A stretch of DNA of 64,000 bases from Chlorobiaceae bacterium (GTDB lineage: Bacteria; Bacteroidota; Chlorobiia; Chlorobiales; Chlorobiaceae): NCBI GenBank assembly GCA_013334925.1, contig JAAXWP010000002.1, positions 1 to 64,000 on the forward strand, written 5' to 3'. The notes beneath the pieces were generated by a model, which had not been told where the DNA came from, ran no database searches, and saw only the letters and a list, made by a program, of their open reading frames with translations. The position numbers and the translations under genes were made by a program. Of this stretch, positions 49,528-63,900 are shown one piece after another (position 1 is the stretch's first letter; each line of letters begins with the position of its first letter).

Positions 49528-50286
49528 TCAGGCAAGCACGATCGGCACGGCCAGACAGTAGCCTACCCCACGATACGTCTTGATGGGAAAACCGAAGCCG
49601 AACGACTCGGTTTTACGCCGCAAACGATAGATCAGTGACTCAAGCGCGCGATTGCCCTGTTCATTTGACTGATAGCCCAAAATTTTCAGGATATACTGAC
49701 GGGTGACGATTGCCGTACTCTGCAACACAAGGGAGAGCAGAAAATCGAACTCCTTGGCCGTCAGCGCAATGACATCACCATGTGGGGTCAGTAAACTCCA
49801 CTCGTTGCGCAGAAGTCGCCACGAACCGCTCTCATCGCCTGCCACAGGCTCCTGTGGAGTGGGTTGTTTAACCTGATGGGGTCTCGATGCCTCGATCCGA
49901 TCGAACATGTTGGCGATCAGCGCCGCCAACTCCCTGACATCGACCGGTTTGGCAAGAGACATGTCAGCGCCTGATTCATATCCGGCGAGTCGCTCCTCGA
50001 CGGTCGCTCCGGAGTGAAGCACGATAATCCAGGCATCGGTATTCTTTCTGACATATTCTGCCAGCACAAATCCGCTCTGGTCCGGCAGGCCGATATCGAT
50101 AATGGCAAGATCGCAGCGCTCAGCGGAAAACAGCATCTGATAAAAATCGGCTGCCGACCCGACTCCAGTCACCGTATACCCCTGAAGTGACAGATAGCTG
50201 ACCAGGTCGTCACGCAAATCCCGGTCACCGTCCACGACGATAACCCGTTTTTCCGAGGCCGTGGTTTGAGAAAAATGCCTGGTCAT
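49528..50286 (-). CDS. OmpR/PhoB-type response regulator
   Basis: A 252-residue two-domain regulator. The receiver at about residues 12-125 has VIVVDGDRDLRDD, phospho-acceptor Asp in LAIIDIGLPDQSG, and Lys in SLAKPVD. The winged-helix DNA-binding domain at about 155-250 has LTAKEFDFLLSLVLQSTAIV, LIYRLRRKTES and IKTYRGVGYCL. It is an orphan without an adjacent kinase. The three CqsS-like kinases begin 3.3 kb away on the other strand and two end in phosphotransfer domains, so it is a candidate partner; that is an inference. Confidence 0.92.
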   Translation of the reverse strand: MTRHFSQTTASEKRVIVVDGDRDLRDDLVSYLSLQGYTVTGVGSAADFYQMLFSAERCDLAIIDIGLPDQSGFVLAEYVRKNTDAWIIVLHSGATVEERLAGYESGADMSLAKPVDVRELAALIANMFDRIEASRPHQVKQPTPQEPVAGDESGSWRLLRNEWSLLTPHGDVIALTAKEFDFLLSLVLQSTAIVTRQYILKILGYQSNEQGNRALESLIYRLRRKTESFGFGFPIKTYRGVGYCLAVPIVLA

Positions 50287-50793: not shown

Positions 50794-51345
50794 TTAAGGC
50801 TGATGAAAGCGAACCCAGGCGGTGAAGCGATCCATCCATCCCTGAAGGAACTGCCTGCTTGCCGCGCCAATTCCGCCATCTTCGTCAAAAAGCCCCTCTT
50901 TTGCCTGTATGAACGCTTCAGGTTGCCCGAGCGTCGGCACATCGAGAAAGGCGAGCATGTTCCGCAGATGCTGCTGGGCCAGCGCAGTACCCGCCGCTCC
51001 CGGCGATATTCCGATGACAGCGGCAGGCTTACCTGTCCACGCACTCTGCCCGTAAGGTCGGGAGGCCTGATCGATAGCATTCTTGAGCACCCCGGGCACC
51101 GAGCGGTTGTATTCGGGTGTCACGAAAAGCAAGCCCTGCGACGCGCCAACAGCCGCCTTCAGACGACGAACGGATTCAGGAGGATCGTTCTCCTCGTCCT
51201 GATTGTAATGAGGTACATCGGCGATAGGTATCAGCGAGAATGAGAAATCGGGTGGGCCAAGACGTATGAGAGCTTCTGCGAGTTTCCTGTTCAGCGAATC
51301 CCTTCTGATGCTGCCGACAATGACGGCAATGTGGTAGTTCTGCAT
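50794..51345 (-). CDS. NADPH-dependent FMN reductase
   Basis: Flavodoxin-fold reductase of about 183 residues. The FMN phosphate loop is IVGSIRRDSLNRKLAEA near the N-terminus. FVTPEYNRSVPGVLKNAIDQ and KPAAVIGISPGAAGTALAQQ are typical of the ChrR/YieF/azoreductase-like group. It may reduce quinones, chromate or flavin. ATG 51345 is preferred because the GGAG inside the upstream ATG-containing stretch makes a ribosome site for it. It is followed by 270 bp before the DUF3570 gene. Confidence 0.92.
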   Translation of the reverse strand: MQNYHIAVIVGSIRRDSLNRKLAEALIRLGPPDFSFSLIPIADVPHYNQDEENDPPESVRRLKAAVGASQGLLFVTPEYNRSVPGVLKNAIDQASRPYGQSAWTGKPAAVIGISPGAAGTALAQQHLRNMLAFLDVPTLGQPEAFIQAKEGLFDEDGGIGAASRQFLQGWMDRFTAWVRFHQP

Positions 51346-51616
51346 GTGAATCTCCATTGATGGTGGCCCGGAATCATCTTTCCTTAACTGCCCCCGGGCG
51401 GTGTTGCATGACCAGGAACTGCATCACCTTTCAAAACCCACTGAACGGGACACTCAGTCAATCTCTTCCGGTTCAGAGATGCCGGCTCTTACAGACCGGC
51501 TCCAATTCATTCATTATATAAACCTGCATCAAAACATCGCAGTTCCTCCGGTTTTCCCTGGAAACATCGATCGAATACTGAATTGCCGATAACTCACCGG
51601 CACAGCCCCAACCCGG

Positions 51617-52867
51617 TCAGATTTCCCGTGAGATGCCAACCTGGATGCTGCGTGCATTGAAGGTCGCCACGCCCGGATCACCATGTCCGCTGACCGTCCA
51701 ATCCTGACGCTGCCTGTAGTGTTCGTATTTCACATCCGCCTGCCAGCCTTTGCCCAGATCCTTGCTGATCTTCATGCCCAACGTGACCGCCCCGAATGCT
51801 CCGAGACGCTGGTCTTCCGAGTAGTATTCGGTCCCGGGAGGAACCGGTGTCGGATCGGACGGAGAGGCGGTGTTGGTTGCAATGTAAAAATCGGCTTCAG
51901 ACTGCGAATAGAGCCTCAGCAATGGCGTCAGCGTCCAGCCACGATGCAGCGGCTGCACATATTCGGCTTCAAGTGTATGAGCTCGAATGCCAAAGGTATC
52001 GGAATAGTAACGGTACGCCAGCCTGGCAGTGCCTTCAGTGCTGTCGAAATGATGATTCCACCTGGCCAGCAGGGTAAACATCTCTCGCTTTCCAGGTCTC
52101 ACGTCCGGATCCTTGTATGGGTCGGTATAGAATCCATGACCTTTTGAATACCCTGCATTGACCTGGACGATATCGTTTTTCGAAACCACCTGGGTCAGAC
52201 CGATCAGACCTGAAAAAACCTGTTTTTTCTCCATCACATCATGCCGTTTTGATGCTACGACATTGGGACGACCAAGATCGATGGAATCATTGTTGAACGC
52301 TACGCCGAGTGTGATGGTCGAATTTCTGTCTTCTGTCGACAAAGTGCCCTGAAGGGAACACCCCCTGGATATGTAATCCGATTCGCGTGAGTAGTTAAGA
52401 CCGCCGGTCAGGCTCCCCCGCTGAAAATATCTGGTAACTGCAAGATCACCGGCATGCCTCAACTCACCCGAAGCCCCTGAAGATGTATCGTGCTCACCCG
52501 AAGACGAAGCAAAACCTGAAGAATGGTAAGCCGGAGATGCCCCGGTAACCGAATCCTCGACAAAAGTGCCGCCAATCAGCCATTTACCGGCGACAGGCAC
52601 CTTGCCGCTGAACGTCAGTGCGTTGACGCCAATCCTGTCTCTGGACATGCCCTGTGTTATGTCGGTATCGCCGCTCTGGCTGTCCTGATAATTGAGATAT
52701 TTAACTGCAACGACAGCCTTTTCGGGAGGAGCATCCGCATACGCACCACTCAATGATGGAAGCAGCACGACCGCAGAAACGAATGCGGTGCTGTACAACG
52801 TCGATTTCGCTGTGGTCACGATATTCATCGCCGTCAGTGGTTTTCTGTGGTTCAATTGCATCCGCAT
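51617..52867 (-). CDS. DUF3570-family outer-membrane beta-barrel protein
   Basis: A 416-residue predicted barrel. A signal peptide (FVSAVVLLPSLSGAYA) is followed by VAVKYLNYQDSQSG, which is typical of DUF3570. Many alternating strands follow (SLTGGLNYSRESDYISRG; TARLAYRYYSDTFGIRAHTL), with a final strand region ending SIQVGISREI. Function is not established. Its 5' end overlaps the DUF4266 lipoprotein gene by 16 bp, so the two are coupled. The pair is known to occur together in other Gram-negative bacteria. Confidence 0.88.
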   Translation of the reverse strand: MRMQLNHRKPLTAMNIVTTAKSTLYSTAFVSAVVLLPSLSGAYADAPPEKAVVAVKYLNYQDSQSGDTDITQGMSRDRIGVNALTFSGKVPVAGKWLIGGTFVEDSVTGASPAYHSSGFASSSGEHDTSSGASGELRHAGDLAVTRYFQRGSLTGGLNYSRESDYISRGCSLQGTLSTEDRNSTITLGVAFNNDSIDLGRPNVVASKRHDVMEKKQVFSGLIGLTQVVSKNDIVQVNAGYSKGHGFYTDPYKDPDVRPGKREMFTLLARWNHHFDSTEGTARLAYRYYSDTFGIRAHTLEAEYVQPLHRGWTLTPLLRLYSQSEADFYIATNTASPSDPTPVPPGTEYYSEDQRLGAFGAVTLGMKISKDLGKGWQADVKYEHYRQRQDWTVSGHGDPGVATFNARSIQVGISREI

Positions 52868-53590: not shown

Positions 53591-56113
53591 ATGCGCTCCC
53601 CTCGTCATTTCAGCAGTGCACTGACTCAGAGAGCCCGTACTGTTTTTGAAACTTTCGAATCGATCATGCCGCTGCTCGGCATTTTTTCGATCGTCTGGCA
53701 TGTTACTGCCTACATCTCCTGGGCCTACATATACCCCCAGCCTTATGAAAGCCTCCTGTTGCGGTCTGTCCATGCATTGCTGGTACTGCCACTGTTGTTT
53801 TATCCCTGGCTGAAACGGTACCTGTCGACCCTCTTTCCAGCCTATTATCTTTTTTTCACGCTTTTCGCCACATCGTTCTTCTTTTTTTTCATGGCCATGA
53901 AGAACGAATGGTCAACCGTATGGACGATATCGACATTCTGTACCGTCCCGGTGCTCATCATGATCGGCTGCGACCTGCTCTACATCGGATTGTTCATTCC
54001 CTCCGCTTATGCGCTGTCATATCTGACGGTGCTCTTCCTGGATGGAGATGTCAGATTCACCCATTTCCAGGGGGCATACTTTCCGATTGTCCTGTTCGCC
54101 GTCTCCGGCAGCCTCGTTGCCAATAGCTGGACACACTTCCGACATCGCACAAGGATCTCGCTTCTGCAGAATCTGAGCGGGTCGATAGCAAACGAAATGA
54201 AAACCCCTTTGCATGCCATTGGCATAGCGATCGAAGCGATCAAAGCGATGCTTCCTGAACGGCGGCATGAAGTAGAAAACGTCAGCATAACGATTCCGGA
54301 ATCCGCTCTGACAGGCATCAGAGACCTGATCGATCAGGAGGCGGAAACCATTCGCAGAAGCAACAAAATCATCGATTCAATCCTGAAAAGCCTCAATGGC
54401 AATGCCATCGACCAGCAACAGTTCAGACGTTGCTCTGTCGCAAAAGCTGTCAGCCAGGTCGTTGAAACTTTTGGATTTGAATCCCCGGAAGATCGTGCCA
54501 GGGTTCACCTCGACCTGTCAAAGGATTTCGATTATTTCGGTGACAGAGACCTTCTTGTGCATTGTCTGTTCAATCTGCTCAACAATGCGCTGTATTACAA
54601 AAACAGGCCCGGGTTCAGCATCGACATCTCCACCCAGGTCGATGATCAGGCGCAGCGTATCATCATAAGGGATAACGGTCCGGGGCTGACTTCAGACCAA
54701 CTGGAAAAAATATTCGAACCGTTCTACACAGTTGACAAACCTGAAGGAAACGGACTCGGGCTCGCTTTCTGCAGAAGAGTCACCGAATCCTTTGGTGGAA
54801 CCATTGTCTGCAGATCCATTCCGGGCAAATGGACTGAATTCGTCCTGGATCTGCCTAAATATGAATCGGCAAAAGTCGATCAGCTCAAGAAAGAGCAGCT
54901 CTCCAGGAAAAAGGTACTCATCGTTGATGATCAGGCAGCCAACCGAATCATGCTCGCCAGATATCTCTCGGATATGAACTGTCAGTACGATCAGGCGGTA
55001 AATGGTCAGGTCGCTCTTGAGATGGCAGCAAAAAAGCGATACGACCTCATCCTTATGGATATCGAAATGCCGGTGCTCAATGGTGACGAGGCGGTAAAAA
55101 AACTCAGAACCGGAGAGGGTATCGAGCCATCCATGGCACTCTATTACTGGGATATACCCATAATCGGCATAACCGCTCTTCCGGAAGCCGAAGCCAAAAG
55201 AAGAACTCATGAATCGGGCATGGACGCCTACGCGCTCAAACCAGTCGATAAAACACAGCTGAAAAGAATCATCGACAGCAGTTTTTTTCAGGAAGAAGAG
55301 GAACCGTTTCCCGGTCTCATGGGGGCGGCGATACTGCTCGTCGATGACAACCTCATGACACGCGAGTTCCTCAAGGCGCTGCTCGAACCACTTGGTGTCC
55401 GGGTCTATCAGGCCGAAAACGGCGCGATAGCCTTGGAACTTCTGCAGGAATTACCGGTTGACCTCGTCATCGTCGACCTTGAGATGCCGGTCATGGGAGG
55501 CCTGGAAATCGCGACAGCACTCAGAAATCATACAGATGAAAAGCTTCGTCATCTTCCGATAATCTCTCTCGGCAAGCAAACCGATCTCGATACCGCAGAA
55601 AAAACGAAACGATCAGGTATCGACCTACATCTCGGCAAACAGACCCGCAGAGGAGAGCTCTTCAAAGCCATTTCGGTACTTCTGGATCATAACAGGCCTC
55701 AGAAAACATTGCGGGAAGAGGGTACATCGATTCCAACCAATTCTCCGGATGAATACGAAGCCTTTTCCGTGCTGGACATGTCAGTCATTGAGACGCTTCA
55801 GCAACTTGGGGAACCAGACCTGTTAGAACAGCTTGTCGGACTCTTTATCAGCGATTCCAGCAAACTCATCGATGACCTTGAAGGGGCGATGCAGCGTCAG
55901 GACCTCGAAGTCACACAGCGGGCAAGCCATACGCTCAAGGGCTCTTCTGCCAGTATGGGTGCCGCCAGACTCCATGCCATCACGACCACAATGAACCATC
56001 AGCTGCGTGCTCAAGGCAATCTGGAGGAACTCTCCTGGATAGATCTGCTCAGGAACACGCTCGACATCACTGAAAAGGCCCTGAAAAATCTGTTACAGGT
56101 CAATCGGCAATAA
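53591..56113 (+). CDS. CqsS-like membrane hybrid sensor kinase 1 (phospho-acceptor His replaced by Asn), two receivers and Hpt
   Basis: An 840-residue inner-membrane protein resembling the Vibrio quorum-sensing receptor CqsS. Residues about 28-175 have six hydrophobic segments including YIYPQPYESLLLRSV and KNEWSTVWTIS (Trp111, Ser114). The dimerisation helix reads LSGSIANEMKTPLHAIG with Asn201 (codon AAC at 54191) where the paralogues have His. The ATPase domain is intact (FNLLNNALYYKN, IIRDNGPGL, GNGLGLAFCRRV, GKWTEFVLDLPKY). Then come receiver 1 (VLIVDDQAANRIM, LILMDIEMPVLNG), receiver 2 (ILLVDDNLMTREF, LVIVDLEMPVMGG; KQ instead of KP), and an Hpt domain with ASHTLKGSSASMG near residue 780. 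It may not autophosphorylate but could act in dimers, as a phosphatase, or as a relay. First of three tandem paralogues. Confidence 0.92.
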   Translation: MRSPRHFSSALTQRARTVFETFESIMPLLGIFSIVWHVTAYISWAYIYPQPYESLLLRSVHALLVLPLLFYPWLKRYLSTLFPAYYLFFTLFATSFFFFFMAMKNEWSTVWTISTFCTVPVLIMIGCDLLYIGLFIPSAYALSYLTVLFLDGDVRFTHFQGAYFPIVLFAVSGSLVANSWTHFRHRTRISLLQNLSGSIANEMKTPLHAIGIAIEAIKAMLPERRHEVENVSITIPESALTGIRDLIDQEAETIRRSNKIIDSILKSLNGNAIDQQQFRRCSVAKAVSQVVETFGFESPEDRARVHLDLSKDFDYFGDRDLLVHCLFNLLNNALYYKNRPGFSIDISTQVDDQAQRIIIRDNGPGLTSDQLEKIFEPFYTVDKPEGNGLGLAFCRRVTESFGGTIVCRSIPGKWTEFVLDLPKYESAKVDQLKKEQLSRKKVLIVDDQAANRIMLARYLSDMNCQYDQAVNGQVALEMAAKKRYDLILMDIEMPVLNGDEAVKKLRTGEGIEPSMALYYWDIPIIGITALPEAEAKRRTHESGMDAYALKPVDKTQLKRIIDSSFFQEEEEPFPGLMGAAILLVDDNLMTREFLKALLEPLGVRVYQAENGAIALELLQELPVDLVIVDLEMPVMGGLEIATALRNHTDEKLRHLPIISLGKQTDLDTAEKTKRSGIDLHLGKQTRRGELFKAISVLLDHNRPQKTLREEGTSIPTNSPDEYEAFSVLDMSVIETLQQLGEPDLLEQLVGLFISDSSKLIDDLEGAMQRQDLEVTQRASHTLKGSSASMGAARLHAITTTMNHQLRAQGNLEELSWIDLLRNTLDITEKALKNLLQVNRQ

Positions 56114-56257
56114 TGCATTGACCTCCCTCGGCGCTGAGGCGCCTCTTGCTCGAACGACCAGTTTCTTTCGCTCGATGGCGTTATCGACCATCGAAGCGGA
56201 CAAAGATTGCGCGACGCAATAAAACTTTGCGAACAGGATAGATCATCATTGAAAATC

Positions 56258-58387
56258 ATGGATACCATTATAAAACTGAATAAAATTTTCCTCAGGAGAG
56301 CCGGAGAGATCATCGATCAGACGGAGCATAAGATTCCGACATTAGGGTATTACATCATCGGCTGGTTTCTGGGTTTTGAACTGGTAATCATTCTTTTCAG
56401 GTCCAGTTATCATGATTTTTTCAGCCTGCGCATCGTTGAGATTATACTAGCCGTGCCGCTGGTCCTGTATAACCATCTGAATGGCACCTTGCGGAAGATT
56501 TTCCCGTATCACTACATCTTCTACATGCTCTGCTGCATCCCCGTTTTCCTGTTCTACAGCACCATAAATAACGACTGGGACCCCATCTGGAGCATGGCGA
56601 CTCTGGGAGGAATTATCCTGCTCGTCGTCATCATTTCCGACTGGCTGTTCATTTCCGTGTTCATCACGTTATCCTTTGGAATTGCCTACTTAACAACCAT
56701 TTACCAGACCGGCACAGTCAGCTTCGTTCATTTCGACCCTCTTTATCTTTCGATTTACATATTCACTTTAAGTGGCAGCATGCTGGTCACCCGCTGGAAA
56801 GAGGAACGAAACAACAACAAGATCTCGCTGATGAAAAGCCTCAGCGGAACGATCGCTCACGAGATGCGGACACCTTTGCATACGATCACGCTGGCTATCG
56901 ATTCCGTCAGCTGCATTCTGCCGGATAAACCGGACCATTCCGAAAATCAGCTCCAATCCGTCACCCTACCGGTAACAGAATTTGACCGTATCAGAAACAT
57001 CATTGACCAGAGTGGCGAGACCATCAAACGGAGCAACAAGATCATCGACTCGATTCTGGCGAGTCTTAACGGCAGCGAAGTCGATCGCCGGCACTTCAGG
57101 TTTCACCAGGCTTCTGCCGTCATCAGCGTGGCCGTTGACAACTACAGTTTCAATGATCTGAATGAAAAATCGCTCGTCCAGCTCGATCTTTCACAGGACT
57201 TTGAATTCCTTGGGGATCGGGAGCTGTTTTCACACATGCTCTTCAATCTGCTGAACAATGCCATCTACTATCGCCACAAACCTGGCTTCTCCATTAAAAT
57301 AAGCACCACTACCGGTGAGAATAGCAATCAGATCAGGATACGTGACACAGGTCCTGGCGTTCCGGCAAACAAACGTGAAGTCATATTCAACCAGTTCTAC
57401 ACCTATGGTAAAAGCGGTGGCAACGGACTGGGACTTGCGTTCTGCAGAAGAGTTGCAGAGTCTTTCGGAGGAACGATAACCTGCCTTTCAGTAACCGGCG
57501 AATGGACAGAATTCGTCATCGACCTCCCATCTGCCGAATCAAAAAATATCCTGCAGCTCAAGAATGAAATACTGACCGGCAGACAGATCCTGATTGTCGA
57601 TGACCAGGCCATCAACCGTCTGCTGCTTTCAAAATTCGTCAACGGAATGAACTGCAGAACGGATCAGGCCGAAAACGGCAAATCGGCTCTTGAAATGGCC
57701 GCAGCAAAAACCTACGACCTCATTCTCATGGATATCGAGATGCCGGTGCTCAACGGAGACGAGGCCGTAAACCGACTGAGGGAGGGAGCCGGAATTCCTT
57801 TGTACCTGAAGAATCATTACCGCGAGATCCCGATCATTGGTGTAACCGCATTACCAGCCCAGGATGCCCGGCAACGCTGCCTGTCATCGGGAATGGACGA
57901 CTACCTCCTGAAACCGATAAAGCAGGCTGACCTCAGAAAGGTTATCGATCGCTATTTCTTCTACGAGCGACCTGCAAAAGAGCGCGCGCCACTCCCGGGC
58001 GTTACCAAAGCGTCCATCCTGCTGGCTGATGACAACGTTGTCATCAGAGAGCTTCTCAAAGCTATGCTCGAGCCACAGGGCTACCAGATCTATCAGGCCG
58101 AACACGGTAAAATGGCTCTCGATCTGCTGAAAGATATGCCGATCGATCTGGTCATCATGGATCTTGAAATGCCAGTTCTTGATGGTTTGGATACAGCGGC
58201 AGAGATCAGAAACAATTCCGTTGAACGGCTTCGCAGCATACCGATCATCGCTCTCAGCGGTCATACCGATTGGGAAACGATAGCAAAAACACAGCAGGCG
58301 GGAATCGATCTGCATCTTGCCAAACCGGTGCAGAAGCACGAACTGCTCAGTGCCGTTGCAAAGCTCGTGTCACACGACTCCGTTTGA
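56258..58387 (+). CDS. CqsS-like membrane hybrid sensor kinase 2, two receivers, no Hpt
   Basis: A 709-residue paralogue of the gene at 53591. Six hydrophobic segments occupy residues about 28-175. The sensor position has NNDWDPIWSMAT, so Trp111 is kept but residue 114 is Ala, not Ser. The H-box LSGTIAHEMRTPLHTIT has His201. ATPase motifs FNLLNNAIYYRH, IRDTGPGVP and GNGLGLAFCRRV are intact. Two receivers follow: ILIVDDQAINRLL with MDIEMPVLNG, and ILLADDNVVIREL with MDLEMPVLDG and LAKPV. The protein stops after receiver 2 and has no Hpt, so its phosphate would have to pass to an Hpt in trans, perhaps those of kinases 1 or 3. ATG 56258 aligns all residue numbers with the paralogues; a TTG at 56207 is less likely. 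Confidence 0.93.
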   Translation: MDTIIKLNKIFLRRAGEIIDQTEHKIPTLGYYIIGWFLGFELVIILFRSSYHDFFSLRIVEIILAVPLVLYNHLNGTLRKIFPYHYIFYMLCCIPVFLFYSTINNDWDPIWSMATLGGIILLVVIISDWLFISVFITLSFGIAYLTTIYQTGTVSFVHFDPLYLSIYIFTLSGSMLVTRWKEERNNNKISLMKSLSGTIAHEMRTPLHTITLAIDSVSCILPDKPDHSENQLQSVTLPVTEFDRIRNIIDQSGETIKRSNKIIDSILASLNGSEVDRRHFRFHQASAVISVAVDNYSFNDLNEKSLVQLDLSQDFEFLGDRELFSHMLFNLLNNAIYYRHKPGFSIKISTTTGENSNQIRIRDTGPGVPANKREVIFNQFYTYGKSGGNGLGLAFCRRVAESFGGTITCLSVTGEWTEFVIDLPSAESKNILQLKNEILTGRQILIVDDQAINRLLLSKFVNGMNCRTDQAENGKSALEMAAAKTYDLILMDIEMPVLNGDEAVNRLREGAGIPLYLKNHYREIPIIGVTALPAQDARQRCLSSGMDDYLLKPIKQADLRKVIDRYFFYERPAKERAPLPGVTKASILLADDNVVIRELLKAMLEPQGYQIYQAEHGKMALDLLKDMPIDLVIMDLEMPVLDGLDTAAEIRNNSVERLRSIPIIALSGHTDWETIAKTQQAGIDLHLAKPVQKHELLSAVAKLVSHDSV

Positions 58388-58722
58388 AATAACATGAAAG
58401 GAATTCTGCCTGCAACATAGTCCCGAAGCACTTGCAACAGGCTCCGATTGCGCCGGTTTTCCATAGCAGATATTGAAAGCGAAAAATCGGCAAAAACACG
58501 CCGAACTGCTCCTCCGTTTTTCGCATGAAGATCAGGAACAGATGCCAGGCCGTTCTGACTTATCGCTCCGTCGATTACCTGTATCAATCACCCGGATCGC
58601 CATGTTTCCGCCAATGGCCTGAGGTTGTCTGAGAGGCATACTGAAGACCAGATTGAGCCATCACCAGGAATAAGGTCATGAAAAGCCATTGTGGCAGAAA
58701 AAAAGCGTCGTTCTGAAAGGGG

Positions 58723-58742
58723 GGCGGGTTTTGCAACCCGCC
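58723..58742. repeat. Hairpin GGCGGGTT-TTGC-AACCCGCC
   Basis: A perfect 8-bp stem just left of the miniature element. A related segment (GTCATTTTGAACGGAGGGCA and a GGCAGacatccCTGCC hairpin) lies at 33010-33045, shortly before miniature-element copy 2. Confidence 0.6.
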
Positions 58743-58749
58743 ATTGAAT

Positions 58750-58847
58750 GAGGCTGTCTCATAAGCAAATCCGAGGCAGTTTCATCCCTGGGAACGCCAA
58801 GCCCCGGCTACTCTTTGACCATCCGATCTGTCTTCTGAGACAACCTC
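58750..58847. mobile_element. Miniature inverted-repeat element, short form, with an extra end at 58866-58883
   Basis: The left end is GAGGCTGTCTCATAAGC; the right end is CTTCTGAGACAACCTC. Another right end, CTTCTGAGACAGCCTC, follows at 58868-58883. The interior differs from the 148-bp copies but its left part matches, inverted, the piece at 33284-33327. No coding capacity. Confidence 0.7.
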
Positions 58848-59132
58848 GTTATAGGTGCTCAGGCCGGCTTCTGAGACAGCCTCATCCGGCAGCTATTTCA
58901 TGCCGTTATGCGTTATTCAGAATGACAGATGCTCTGATGGTGTGTCTTTGACTCCTGTGGTTGCCGAAGTGACACAAAAGTTCACGAAACGAAAATGCGC
59001 TCTTGCTCCGACAGGAATTTATCCGGAAGAAAACGATCGCTTCGCCGACGATCCCAAACTTTTCTGTATTCTATTCTTATGTGTCAAACGTGAGCGCCTG
59101 GGCACAAACAACCAGCTGCAGTAATCAACCAC

Positions 59133-61661
59133 ATGAATGCGCGCAATAACATGCTGGTCAGCCTCCGTCAGCGGGCTGAAGCTGTTACCGATCATATGGC
59201 ACCCAATATACCAGCCCTCGGTGCCTTCATCATTTTCTGGCAGTTCGCCTGTATCCTGATCTGGATAAATCATGGGTTCGAAACCTATGAAAACCTGTTC
59301 ATGAGAAGTCTGCTGGCGATCGGAGCCCTGCCTCTGGCATTTCTGCGAAGAGTCCCGCCCTCTTTCAGAAAAATGTTCCCATGGTACTTCCTCGGGTTCA
59401 TTCTGTTCTTTGGCAATTACTTTACCTTTTTCATGACCATCAGGAGTGAATGGACGACTGACTGGTCGATGTCCACGCTGGTCACCGTCATGCTGATCAT
59501 CGTGATCACCTACGATTGGGTATTCATTGTTCCGCTGATGAGCCTGGCCTATCTGCTTGCCCACCTGAGCGTACTCATCCTGGATGGAGGCGTCCGGTAC
59601 ACACACCTCGACAAAGAGTTCCTGCCCTCCCTCGTTTTTGCCATATCCGGCACGCTGATTGTCACACGCTGGAAACAGACACGTCATGAAACCAGTATCT
59701 CGCTGATGAAGAGCCTGAGCAGCACCATCGCACATGAGATGCGAAGTCCTCTGAACTCCATCACCCTGGCCATCAACGCCGTCAGGACCATGCTCCCCGA
59801 AAGGCGAAACAATACCGGTAACGTGAGCGAAAGAGTGTCGATTCCCGATGTGACCCTGAACGGTATCAGGGATATCATTGATCGCAGCGCTGACACTATC
59901 CGAAGAAGCAACAAGATCATCGACTCCATTCTGGCGAGTATGAATGGAAGCGAACTCGACCGCAGCCACTTTAAGGTCTACGAAGCCGCAAACATCGTCA
60001 GGCTTACCGTAGCAAGCTACGCATTCACCAATCCTGAAGAGCAATCGCTCATCCATCTGCAGCTTTCCGATAACTTCGAATTTCTCGGGGACCGTGACCT
60101 TTTTTCCAATCTGTTGTTCAATCTGATCGACAACGCGCTTTACTATCAGTCGACCCGAGGATTCCGCATCGACATCATCACGGCAAAAAAGGAGAACAGC
60201 AACTGCATCATCATACGAGACAATGGACCCGGAGTCCCGGCTGACAAGCGCGAAGCTATCTTCGAGCAGTTCTGCACCTTTGGTAAAACTGGCGGCAATG
60301 GCCTCGGACTCTCCTTCTGCAGGAGAATCACCGACTCGTTCGGCGGCACGATCGTGTGCAACTCGGAGCCTGGAGCATGGACGGAGTTTGTCATCGAACT
60401 GCCCTCGACCGAATCGAAAGCCATGGATAACCTCAAACGGGAACTCCTGACTGACCGACAGGTGCTGATCGTCGACGATCAGGCCCCGAACCGTATTCTG
60501 CTTTCAAAATTCGTGAGTGACCTCAACTGCAAGGTGGACCTGGCCGAAAACGGAAAAATCGCTCTGGACATGGCCGCCACCAAATCTTACGACCTCATCC
60601 TCATGGATATCGAAATGCCGGTGCTCACGGGAGATGGTGCCGTACAACGCCTGAGGGATGGAGGGGATCTGCCCCCCGCGCTGCGAAGCCATTACCGTAA
60701 TATCCCCGTTATCGGAGTTACGGCGCTGCCCGAAAAAGAGGCCATTCAGCGTACCGTCAAGTCCGGCATGGACAGTTACCTGCTCAAGCCGGTCAGAAGC
60801 AACGTCATCCGGGAGCTCATCTATCACAGCTTCTTCAGCGAAATGAGTGAAAAAAAGCGGGCTCCGCAGGAAAACCTCGCCGGAGCATCGATACTTCTTG
60901 TCGACGATAACCTCATGACCCTGGAGTTTCTCAAACTGTTTCTCGAGCCTATCGGATCGCGGCTGCACCTGGCGGGAAACGGACGGGACGCTTTGGCGCT
61001 TCTGCAGGAGCAGTCGTTCGATCTGGTCATCATGGATCTGGAGATGCCGATCATGGGCGGAATCGAAACCGCAAAAGCCATCAGGTCCTCCGAAGCCTGC
61101 CGTATGGTACCGATCATCTCCCTGAGCGGCCACACCAGCAGACAAACCATCCTGGAAGCACGCCAGTCGGGCATCGACATTCATCTCGGCAAACCGATTC
61201 GGAGATATGAGCTCCTGGACGCCATTTCCACCCTGATCACCCGCAACGGCAAAGCGGAGCAGACGAACACACAGTACCAGACAAAAAAACCCTCATATAC
61301 CATCATGTCAAACGAAACCGAACCCCTCCTTGACGACTCGATCATAACCAGTCTCAAGGAACTTGGAGACCCCGAACTGTTCGCTCAGCTGGTCGGTATT
61401 TTCATGACGGACACCGAACAACTCATCAGGCAACTGGACGAAGCCCTGGGCAACCATGACCTTGAAACCGCATTGCGTGCCAGTCACACACTGAAAGGAT
61501 CGGCGGCAAACATCGGGGCAAACCTGATGCATCACACCTCAGCAGAAATCAACAACCGGCTTCGTACTGCCGGATTCCCTGCCGAAAACGACTGGATCGA
61601 ACAACTCGGAAAAATCCTGAAAATGACGGAACAGGCATTTTCAGAACATGAAAACCGGTAA
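59133..61661 (+). CDS. CqsS-like membrane hybrid sensor kinase 3, two receivers and Hpt
   Basis: An 842-residue third paralogue and apparently the complete one. The sensor region has NHGFETYENLFMRSL and RSEWTTDWSMST (Trp111, Ser114). H-box LSSTIAHEMRSPLNSIT keeps His201. ATPase motifs are FNLIDNALYYQS, IIRDNGPGVP and GNGLGLSFCRRI. Receiver 1 has VLIVDDQAPNRIL and MDIEMPVLTG; receiver 2 has ILLVDDNLMTLEF, MDLEMPIMGG and LGKPI. The Hpt domain near residue 785 has ASHTLKGSAANIG. It is separated from kinase 2 by 745 bp of repeats, so it probably has its own promoter. By likeness to CqsS it would bind a small lipophilic signal; no synthase gene is in the window. Confidence 0.94.
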   Translation: MNARNNMLVSLRQRAEAVTDHMAPNIPALGAFIIFWQFACILIWINHGFETYENLFMRSLLAIGALPLAFLRRVPPSFRKMFPWYFLGFILFFGNYFTFFMTIRSEWTTDWSMSTLVTVMLIIVITYDWVFIVPLMSLAYLLAHLSVLILDGGVRYTHLDKEFLPSLVFAISGTLIVTRWKQTRHETSISLMKSLSSTIAHEMRSPLNSITLAINAVRTMLPERRNNTGNVSERVSIPDVTLNGIRDIIDRSADTIRRSNKIIDSILASMNGSELDRSHFKVYEAANIVRLTVASYAFTNPEEQSLIHLQLSDNFEFLGDRDLFSNLLFNLIDNALYYQSTRGFRIDIITAKKENSNCIIIRDNGPGVPADKREAIFEQFCTFGKTGGNGLGLSFCRRITDSFGGTIVCNSEPGAWTEFVIELPSTESKAMDNLKRELLTDRQVLIVDDQAPNRILLSKFVSDLNCKVDLAENGKIALDMAATKSYDLILMDIEMPVLTGDGAVQRLRDGGDLPPALRSHYRNIPVIGVTALPEKEAIQRTVKSGMDSYLLKPVRSNVIRELIYHSFFSEMSEKKRAPQENLAGASILLVDDNLMTLEFLKLFLEPIGSRLHLAGNGRDALALLQEQSFDLVIMDLEMPIMGGIETAKAIRSSEACRMVPIISLSGHTSRQTILEARQSGIDIHLGKPIRRYELLDAISTLITRNGKAEQTNTQYQTKKPSYTIMSNETEPLLDDSIITSLKELGDPELFAQLVGIFMTDTEQLIRQLDEALGNHDLETALRASHTLKGSAANIGANLMHHTSAEINNRLRTAGFPAENDWIEQLGKILKMTEQAFSEHENR

Positions 61662-61777: not shown

Positions 61778-62515
61778 ATGAGCAACAAGGTACTGATCAT
61801 CCAGAACATCGGTCACGAAGGTCCGGGACTGCTGCTGGATCTCATGCGTGAATACACGATTGAGTTCGAACTCTGCGATCTCTCGCAGGGAGACCTTATC
61901 CCCGATCCCCTCGACTTCGCCGCTGTCGTCATACTTGGCGGGCCACAGAGCGCTAACGATGAAAGCGCGACCATGAGTCAGGAGTTGCAGCGAGTGCGTG
62001 AAATCCTCGATGCTTCGATCCCCTGTCTCGGCATCTGCCTCGGCCTCCAGGTGATGGTCAAGGCCTCGGGCGGGAGCATTGAACCTTGTGCACTGAAAGA
62101 GACCGGCTTTCATGAACCCGATGGAGAGCCGTATACGGTATCCCTGACGCCTGAAGGCCGAAATGACCGACTCTTCAAAGGTCTGGCGGATCGGCTGAGA
62201 GTGTTTCAGCTGCATGGCGAAACGGTCGTCCCCACACCAGAAATGTCATTGCTGGGCACCGGAAAAGGATGCCGCTTCCAGGTTCTGAGAATCGGCGGCA
62301 ACGCCTGGGGACTCCAGTGTCATTTCGAAATGACCCGCAGCATGTTCGAAACGTGGACTGAACTCGATCCCGACCTCAGGGCGATGGACAGAAACACGTT
62401 GCTTGCCGATTTCGACCGTATCGGCCCAGAGTACACGAACACCGGTCGAACCCTGCTCCTGAATTTCCTGGAGGCGGCCGGACTTGTTGATGTGTTGCCC
62501 GAATCGGCATCATGA
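61778..62515 (+). CDS. Class I glutamine amidotransferase-like protein
   Basis: A 245-residue GATase1 domain protein similar to the stand-alone GMP-synthase-like amidotransferases. The nucleophile Cys lies in CLGICLGLQVMVKA at about residue 88; the His and Glu of the triad lie in LQCHFEMT near residue 180. VVILGGPQSANDE is the oxyanion segment. Its partner is not evident, and it may act as a peptidase or a gamma-glutamyl hydrolase instead. It overlaps the photolyase start by four bases, which indicates coupling. Confidence 0.9.
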   Translation: MSNKVLIIQNIGHEGPGLLLDLMREYTIEFELCDLSQGDLIPDPLDFAAVVILGGPQSANDESATMSQELQRVREILDASIPCLGICLGLQVMVKASGGSIEPCALKETGFHEPDGEPYTVSLTPEGRNDRLFKGLADRLRVFQLHGETVVPTPEMSLLGTGKGCRFQVLRIGGNAWGLQCHFEMTRSMFETWTELDPDLRAMDRNTLLADFDRIGPEYTNTGRTLLLNFLEAAGLVDVLPESAS

Positions 62516-63900
62516 AGACGATCTCCCCTCAGGTTGACCCGAGACGAGTACGTGCGCTGAACTCCGTACCCGACAGAACAGGACCGGTCATGTACTGGAT
62601 GTCGCGTGACCAGCGCGCGCGGCACAACTGGGCACTGCTCCATGCGTGCCAGAAAGCGAACGAACTCGGCCAGCCGCTCGAGGTGGTGTTCACCCTGGCT
62701 CCGAACTTTCTGGACGCTCCGTTTCGCCATTACGATTTCATGTTCAGGGGACTGCAGGAAACGGAATCCGCGCTTCGAGCGCTCGGTATCCCGATGAACG
62801 TCCTTTCAGGAGAGCCCGGAACTCTTCTGCCAGCTTATGCCACCGAACGTCGGGCCGGAGCGATTATCACCGACTTTTCTCCCCTGAAGCTCACCAGAAG
62901 CTGGAAAACAGCGATCGCAGAACGACTGGAATGCCCGTTGTACGAAGTCGATGCCCACAACATCGTCCCCTGCTGGTTGGCGTCGACGAAACAGGAGTTC
63001 GCAGCCAGGACCATCCGCCCGAAGCTTCACGCCCTCCAAGAAACCTTCCTGACTCCGTTTCCCGATCCCGAAGCACATTACCAGCCATCCTCGCTCATCA
63101 GTCCAACGGTGGACTGGTCAATGATTGCCGACGGAATCCGTGCAAACCGCTCGATCGGGCCGTCAGACGCTCTGCCACCTGGTGAAAAGGCCGCAGCAAA
63201 TCGACTCCGTCAGTTCATCGCCCGTAGCCTTCAGGAGTATGCTGAAAAGAGAAATGACCCGAACAGCGGTTGCGTATCACAGCTCTCCGCCTACCTCCAC
63301 TTCGGCCAGATCAGCGCGCAGCATGTGGCCCTGTCGGTCATGCAGAGCGGATCTTCTGTTGCCGATCGTGACGCGTTCATCGAAGAGCTCTTCGTCAGAA
63401 GGGAGCTCTCCGATAATTTCTGTTTCTATAACCCCGATTACGACACCTTCAACGGTATTCCTGCATGGGCCAAAGCGACCCTTGCCGACCACGCTGAAGA
63501 TCGACGGGATTACCGCTATTCACTCGAAGATTTCGAAGCTGGAAGGACACACGACCCTCTCTGGAATGCCGCACAGAAGAGCCTCGTCGGAACCGGGCTC
63601 ATGCATGGGTACCTGAGAATGTACTGGGCGAAGAAAATTCTCGAATGGAGCGCCAGCCCGGTTACGGCATTCGAAACAGCCGTACTGCTGAACGACCGTT
63701 ACGCACTCGACGGGCGTGATCCCAATGGCTACACCGGCATCGCCTGGTCGGTCGGAGGTCTGCACGACCGCCCGTGGTTCGAACGGCCGGTCTATGGCAA
63801 GATCCGTTACATGAACGCCTCCGGCTGCGCCAGAAAGTTCGATGTCCAGCGATACATCCGGGAGATCGGCAGGCAAGACACGCTCTTTCCGGATACCTGA
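62512..63900 (+). CDS. Class II deoxyribodipyrimidine photolyase
   Basis: Blue-light flavoenzyme of 462 residues that repairs UV-induced cyclobutane pyrimidine dimers. The N-terminal Rossmann-like domain has VMYWMSRDQRARHNWALLHA, a mark of class II enzymes. The C-terminal FAD domain has LSAYLHFGQISAQHVAL at about residue 265, EELFVRRELSDNFC, MHGYLRMYWAKKILEW and DGRDPNGYTGIAWSVGG, the class II FAD-site signature. It starts inside the stop of the amidotransferase gene. Light exposure in a phototroph makes it useful. The last 100 bp of the window show no gene. Confidence 0.96.
   Translation: MKTISPQVDPRRVRALNSVPDRTGPVMYWMSRDQRARHNWALLHACQKANELGQPLEVVFTLAPNFLDAPFRHYDFMFRGLQETESALRALGIPMNVLSGEPGTLLPAYATERRAGAIITDFSPLKLTRSWKTAIAERLECPLYEVDAHNIVPCWLASTKQEFAARTIRPKLHALQETFLTPFPDPEAHYQPSSLISPTVDWSMIADGIRANRSIGPSDALPPGEKAAANRLRQFIARSLQEYAEKRNDPNSGCVSQLSAYLHFGQISAQHVALSVMQSGSSVADRDAFIEELFVRRELSDNFCFYNPDYDTFNGIPAWAKATLADHAEDRRDYRYSLEDFEAGRTHDPLWNAAQKSLVGTGLMHGYLRMYWAKKILEWSASPVTAFETAVLLNDRYALDGRDPNGYTGIAWSVGGLHDRPWFERPVYGKIRYMNASGCARKFDVQRYIREIGRQDTLFPDT

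Follow-up and report, generated by a model that had tools for sequence, protein, structure and literature searches.

Three adjacent receptor genes on the same strand, R1, R2 and R3, were found in the window, the 64,000-nucleotide stretch of DNA analysed here. They encode hybrid kinases of the CqsS family. R1 has lost the phosphoacceptor His and R2 its Hpt domain, the sensors correspond slot by slot to those of a related genome, and the CqsA genes of the host lie away from the locus. We read the locus as an old tandem set of orphan CqsS-family hybrid kinases that would offer three input ports to one output module, and give this reading a probability of roughly 60%. The host is a green sulfur bacterium, as the first-pass annotation had supposed: a search for the FMO protein matched its genome at 737 bits and none of 14 control genomes.

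Gene organisation and sensor family

R1 (53591..56113, + strand) encodes 840 amino acids and R3 (59133..61661, +) encodes 842. R2 (56207..58387, +) encodes 726 amino acids if read from the mechanically assigned TTG at 56207, or 709 from the ATG at 56258, which is the likelier start. R1 and R2 are about 145 bp apart, counted to the ATG at 56258, and 745 bp (58388..59132, +) follow R2. ORF analysis and domain searches bore out the earlier description of three adjacent same-strand receptor genes, each with a HATPase and two receiver domains. R3 has the complete layout of six-helix membrane (6TM) sensor, DHp domain with His201, HATPase, REC1, REC2 and Hpt. R1 has a CqsS-type 6TM sensor and the same order of domains, with Asn201 in place of the His, and R2, which has the His, ends after REC2 with no Hpt. 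Promoter and terminator scans gave no more than the chance expectation. An OmpR-type response regulator (49528..50286, −), an NADPH-dependent FMN reductase (50794..51357, −; a conserved neighbour in genome G006) and a DUF3570 protein (51617..52867, −; conserved in genome G018) lie on the left. The conserved right-hand neighbours are a class-I glutamine amidotransferase-like protein (61778..62515, +) and a DNA photolyase-like protein (62512..63900, +).

An HMM made from the three sensors, with the H-box excluded, returned two CqsS proteins of Vibrio (1.5e-15 and 2.4e-14). Comparison of profiles with hhalign gave 99%. A CqsA homologue adjoins each of these two Vibrio proteins, so they were taken as genuine CqsS. 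AlphaFold2 predicted six long helices in the sensor (mean pLDDT 85), the last of which continues into the DHp helix. The sensor-only HMM, the profile match and the six predicted helices thus place the sensors, as judged from their sequences, within the CqsS family; a likeness limited to generic kinase motifs, which the first-pass annotation had named as the result that would overturn its view, was not what we found. LuxN was the top NCBIfam match, but the match spans the kinase half only, and LuxN was rejected as the identity. A PDB search for structural relatives of the sensor returned none that were significant, so no link is drawn to the 6TM anchors of adenylate cyclases discussed in PMC4821796.

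The sensor and H-box regions of R1–R3 align without gaps over 223 columns. Residues 111 and 201 consequently carry the same number in all three proteins, as had been pointed out, provided that R2 starts at 56258; residue 111 is Trp throughout. The strings first quoted as common to all three proteins did not hold up: PQPYESLLLR, EWSTVWTIS and WTEFVLDLPKY occur in R1 only, and the H-box string IAHEMRSPLNS occurs in R3 only, R1 reading IANEMKTPLH. The PQPYE signature, located between helices 1 and 2, is kept in R1 and reads SSYHD in R2 and FETYEN in R3.

The three proteins resemble Vibrio CqsS, the CAI-1 receptor, in the 6TM sensor, the DHp/HATPase core, the C-terminal receiver and the equivalents of W104 and F162. 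They differ from it in having an intact REC1 and, in two of the three, a fused Hpt, in lacking PQPYE (R2 and R3) or the H-box His (R1), and in having no cqsA neighbour. Vibrio CqsS contains a stretch of similar size at the place of REC1, which matches the green sulfur REC1 profile marginally (hhalign 16%; HMM i-E 0.017 and 0.09); the idea that Vibrio CqsS has a first receiver in degenerate form was not adopted on such marginal support.

History of the tandem array

In a tree of 52 receptors, built as the first-pass annotation had proposed, R1–R3 and seven others formed a clade with 100/100 support, apart from the cqsA-linked clade. Members of the triplet clade were found only in the host genome and in genomes G006, G018 and G010. 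G018 has three (a, b and c) in the same order as R1–R3, and is the only genome besides the host from which the full triplet is known. G006 has one, in a neighbourhood common to G018 and the host.

The sensors paired by slot between the host and G018, with tree support of 92/89 for R1 and a, 90/84 for R2 and b, and 100/99 for R3 and c; the last pairing reaches the starred level of support and the first two fall below it. Uniting the three G018 sensors as a clade was rejected (p about 6e-57). The kinase parts of the G018 proteins cluster together (97/96), and pairing of the kinases by slot was rejected (p 0.0002–0.004). At the DNA level, the G018 copies are 37–60% identical over the sensor and 78–98% identical from the sensor/DHp border (residue 180) onwards, the latter range applying to the region covered by all three copies, in which a few windows fall to 71–77%. 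The simplest reading of these data is an old triplication in which the sensors have stayed distinct per slot and the output module has been gene-converted in one lineage. Homogenisation was not seen in the host genome, whose triplet kinases are 52–59% identical, so a shared output for the host triplet is argued from G018. The description of R1–R3 as recent paralogues had to be given up, since their sensors are only 28–36% identical and the three slots already existed when the host and G018 diverged.

Signal synthases and the ligand

The host genome encodes seven CqsS-like receptors: the triplet, R4 (contig 37), R5 (contig 62), R6 (at about 122–124 kb of the triplet's own contig) and the distant, short R7 (contig 77). 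The genome-wide search for CqsA proposed earlier was carried out and gave two genes, on contigs 37 and 67, scoring 593 and 615 bits to the alpha-hydroxyketone autoinducer synthase equivalog NF005526 (curated cut-off 428 bits), neither of them next to the triplet. The contig 67 gene scored 386 bits against the V. cholerae CqsA structure. The contig 37 cqsA is beside R4 and divergent from it. The second cqsA starts less than 200 bp from where contig 67 ends, and R5 about 150–200 bp from the end of contig 62; because both start so near contig ends, they likely form another divergent pair, interrupted by an assembly gap. Among 98 genomes of the order Chlorobiales, CqsA was found in 30, and a CqsS-like receptor was near 29 of the 34 CqsA genes, the remaining five being at contig ends. 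As cqsA-linked receptors of Chlorobiaceae, a class that also takes in the Prosthecochloris pair of PMC10158934, R4 and R5 are like the triplet in genome of origin, in the REC-REC-Hpt layout of the long type and in kinase identity (44–53%), and differ in belonging to a separate clade and in having cqsA divergent beside them, probably so in the case of R5.

Several further observations were made around these genes. R6 (L022 3756-11983; G000:C74, ~122–130 kb) adjoins an iron-type alcohol dehydrogenase and a 1109-aa patatin-like protein, and carries Ile in its sensor in place of the F162 equivalent. About 1.3 kb from a cqsA lies a gene for a protein of the thiol-activated, cholesterol-dependent cytolysin family (L009 2701-4128; G000:C67, −), with 282 bits to PF01289 plus the C-terminal domain of the family. 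The cqsA match at G023:C47:308556-309743 carries one in-frame TAA. A MAG labelled Rickettsiaceae encodes a CqsS-like receptor with Hpt (L062 4935-7511) that is 37% identical to R4; its presence there may reflect transfer or misbinning.

R7 closes a cassette that begins with an AfsA-like hotdog protein (PF03756), followed by a flavin amine-oxidase-like protein (L023 1165-5514, G000:C77; also L111 905-12652 and L113 2254-9083). R7-type receptors are related 6TM sensor kinases with two REC domains, of which REC1 is degenerate; they differ from R1–R3 in length (about 700–730 aa), in lacking Hpt, in sensor sequence (13–20% identity) and in being paired with AfsA or cqsA. In the 98 genomes, 25 of 28 AfsA genes were located upstream of an R7-type receptor on the same strand, with an almost constant spacing of 1427–1530 nt. 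The cassette is tandemly duplicated in G007, and in G001 and G008 the R7-type receptor adjoins cqsA instead of AfsA. This suggests that related CqsS-type receptors work with signal synthases of two different types. The literature searched yielded no pairing of AfsA with either CqsS or LqsS, and the cassette may be more novel than the triplet; if confirmed, it would link an enzyme of the A-factor type with a membrane kinase of the CqsS type, not with a cytosolic repressor. On a Paraburkholderia caribensis plasmid (L026 1852-5493), an Hpt-bearing CqsS-like receptor gene was located 27 bp after a ketoacyl-synthase-III-like gene, possibly a third synthase partner for CqsS-like receptors.

W104, S107 and F162 (V. 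cholerae numbering) are ligand residues of CqsS, and W104 and F162 read the head group of the signal in the Vibrio protein (PMC3376566). The equivalents of W104 and F162 are Trp and Phe in R1, R2 and R3 alike, while that of S107 is Ser in R1 and R3 and Ala in R2. Read without gaps, position 166 is Gly in R1–R5, and position 170 is Ala in R1, R4 and R5, Val in R2 and R3, and Leu in R6. Position 170 determines tail length in Vibrio CqsS. By homology to CqsS, each six-helix sensor would bind a hydrophobic, acyl-derived signal inside the membrane, and binding would switch the kinase. The ligand would most likely be an alpha-hydroxyketone or a close analogue, coming from the cell's own two CqsA enzymes, encoded elsewhere in the genome, or from neighbouring cells.

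The strongest competing explanation, which we rate as possible and clearly less probable than the orphan receptor set, is that the clade has switched ligand away from alpha-hydroxyketones, for instance to what the AfsA and oxidoreductase enzymes make or to a lipid or redox cue, so that no CqsA quorum sensing would be involved. Relatives of the triplet persist in G006, G018 and G010, where no CqsA above the cut-off was found (best 196 bits against 428), and the ligand may for that reason be foreign or not an alpha-hydroxyketone. G006 and G018 also have an AfsA gene, not beside a receptor. The regular pairing of R7-type receptors with AfsA genes points the same way, since with such partners membership of the CqsS family does not fix the ligand, as do the low identity among the triplet sensors, the disappearance of PQPYE from R2 and R3 and the Ala at the S107 position of R2. 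Against a switch stand the conserved W104 and F162 equivalents in all three sensors, their match to the sensors of Vibrio CqsS (1e-14 to 1e-15) and the two CqsA genes of the host.

Proposed phosphorelay, output and significance

R1 was the only one of 54 aligned receptors to lack the phosphoacceptor His, the codon at this position being AAC (Asn201; 54191..54193, +); the other 53, R2 and R3 included, have His there. The REC2 Asp is conserved in R1, R2 and R3, and in REC2 of R1 the conserved Thr/Ser is replaced by Gly and KP by KQ. With Asn201, R1 is predicted to be unable to autophosphorylate at its own H-box, yet it retains its Hpt. In R2 the situation is reversed. Its orthologue G018b has an Hpt, no Hpt remnant was recognised in the 745 bp that follow R2, and on this comparison R2 has lost the domain. 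Because the defects are complementary, R1 having Hpt without His and R2 His without Hpt, and the genes are only about 145 bp apart, an R1/R2 heterodimer is a natural hypothesis. R1 would probably act as heterodimer partner, phosphatase or Hpt donor, and R3 is the one complete copy beside two that are now partial.

In the orphan receptor set as we picture it, the three sensors would be separate input ports, distinct per slot since before the split from the related species, and would feed one interchangeable output module, with phosphate passing from His to receiver Asp, to Hpt His and on to a response regulator. A bolder version is doubtful at present: a combinatorial three-port receptor with sensors that stay apart per slot, gene-converted output and, in the host, an obligate R1/R2 heterodimer, within a family of green sulfur bacterial CqsS-type 6TM kinases that are ligand-diverse and have exchanged CqsA and AfsA-oxidoreductase synthases.

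The defects of R1 and R2 could also reflect decay, with both genes becoming pseudogenes and R3 alone, or none of the three, still working. The His-to-Asn and Thr/Ser-to-Gly changes of R1, the missing Hpt of R2 and the long terminal branches of both in the receptor tree (R1 0.63, R2 0.79) would suit such a history. We consider it improbable, as all three frames are intact over 709–842 codons, R1 retains the N-box, G-boxes, REC1 Asp/Thr/Lys and Hpt His, and R2 retains every catalytic residue as far as REC2. The view of the first-pass annotation, that these are canonical CAI-1 receptors, recently triplicated and all active as kinases, fits the CqsS-family sensors and the occurrence of CqsA in the host. 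We consider it very improbable, given that the phosphoacceptor His is missing from R1 and the Hpt from R2, that the genes were triplicated before the host and G018 diverged and that no cqsA was found at the locus, which has 53 kb of contig on one side and 86 kb on the other; its claims of recency and of three complete kinases are refuted.

Candidates for the output were sought in the host genome. In G006 and G018 the OmpR-type regulator adjoins the receptors, and in G010 it lies close to the receptor. In two genomes where no orphan receptor is present at that place, its orthologue also has the amidotransferase as neighbour, and this occurrence without receptors makes it weak evidence for an output; it was rejected as a dedicated one. 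A stand-alone LuxU was likewise rejected, as the only stand-alone Hpt of the genome sits beside a hybrid kinase. The search for a LuxU/LuxO relay gave ten strong sigma54 activators in the host genome.

A new signalling arrangement, with fused Hpt domains replacing LuxU, had been proposed for the triplet. Its CqsS-family sensors stand, as do the two receivers in all three proteins and the Hpt in the first and third. The novelty is weakened on four counts. REC-REC-Hpt is the usual layout of long CqsS-like receptors in the sampled Chlorobiaceae, the cqsA-linked ones included, and is thus not specific to the triplet; a fused Hpt is also found in the Paraburkholderia relative. The second receiver, first taken as an addition peculiar to these genes, is found in all long green sulfur receptors. 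No synthase adjoins the triplet. Finally, the cqsA/cqsS pair is already published: a passage of PMC5289986 that cites Tiaden 2010 names homologues in Chlorobium and Prosthecochloris, and a pair of which cqsA was lost in one strain is reported for Prosthecochloris (PMC10158934). Orphan receptors of the CqsS/LqsS type have a precedent in LqsT of the Legionella Lqs system, an alpha-hydroxyketone receptor paralogue without its own synthase (PMC5289986); compared by description, LqsT differs from the triplet in being single and in belonging to Gammaproteobacteria. An orphan tandem array with sensors conserved slot by slot was not found in the literature searched, and this, on the sequence evidence, appears to be the new part.

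Cell-cell signalling in green sulfur bacteria has been annotated and not experimentally tested in the literature searched. The triplet suggests that three different chemical inputs are wired to one shared output in a phototroph, and a single genome with two synthases and seven receptors would be a system for studying how receptors gain ligands while keeping one output.
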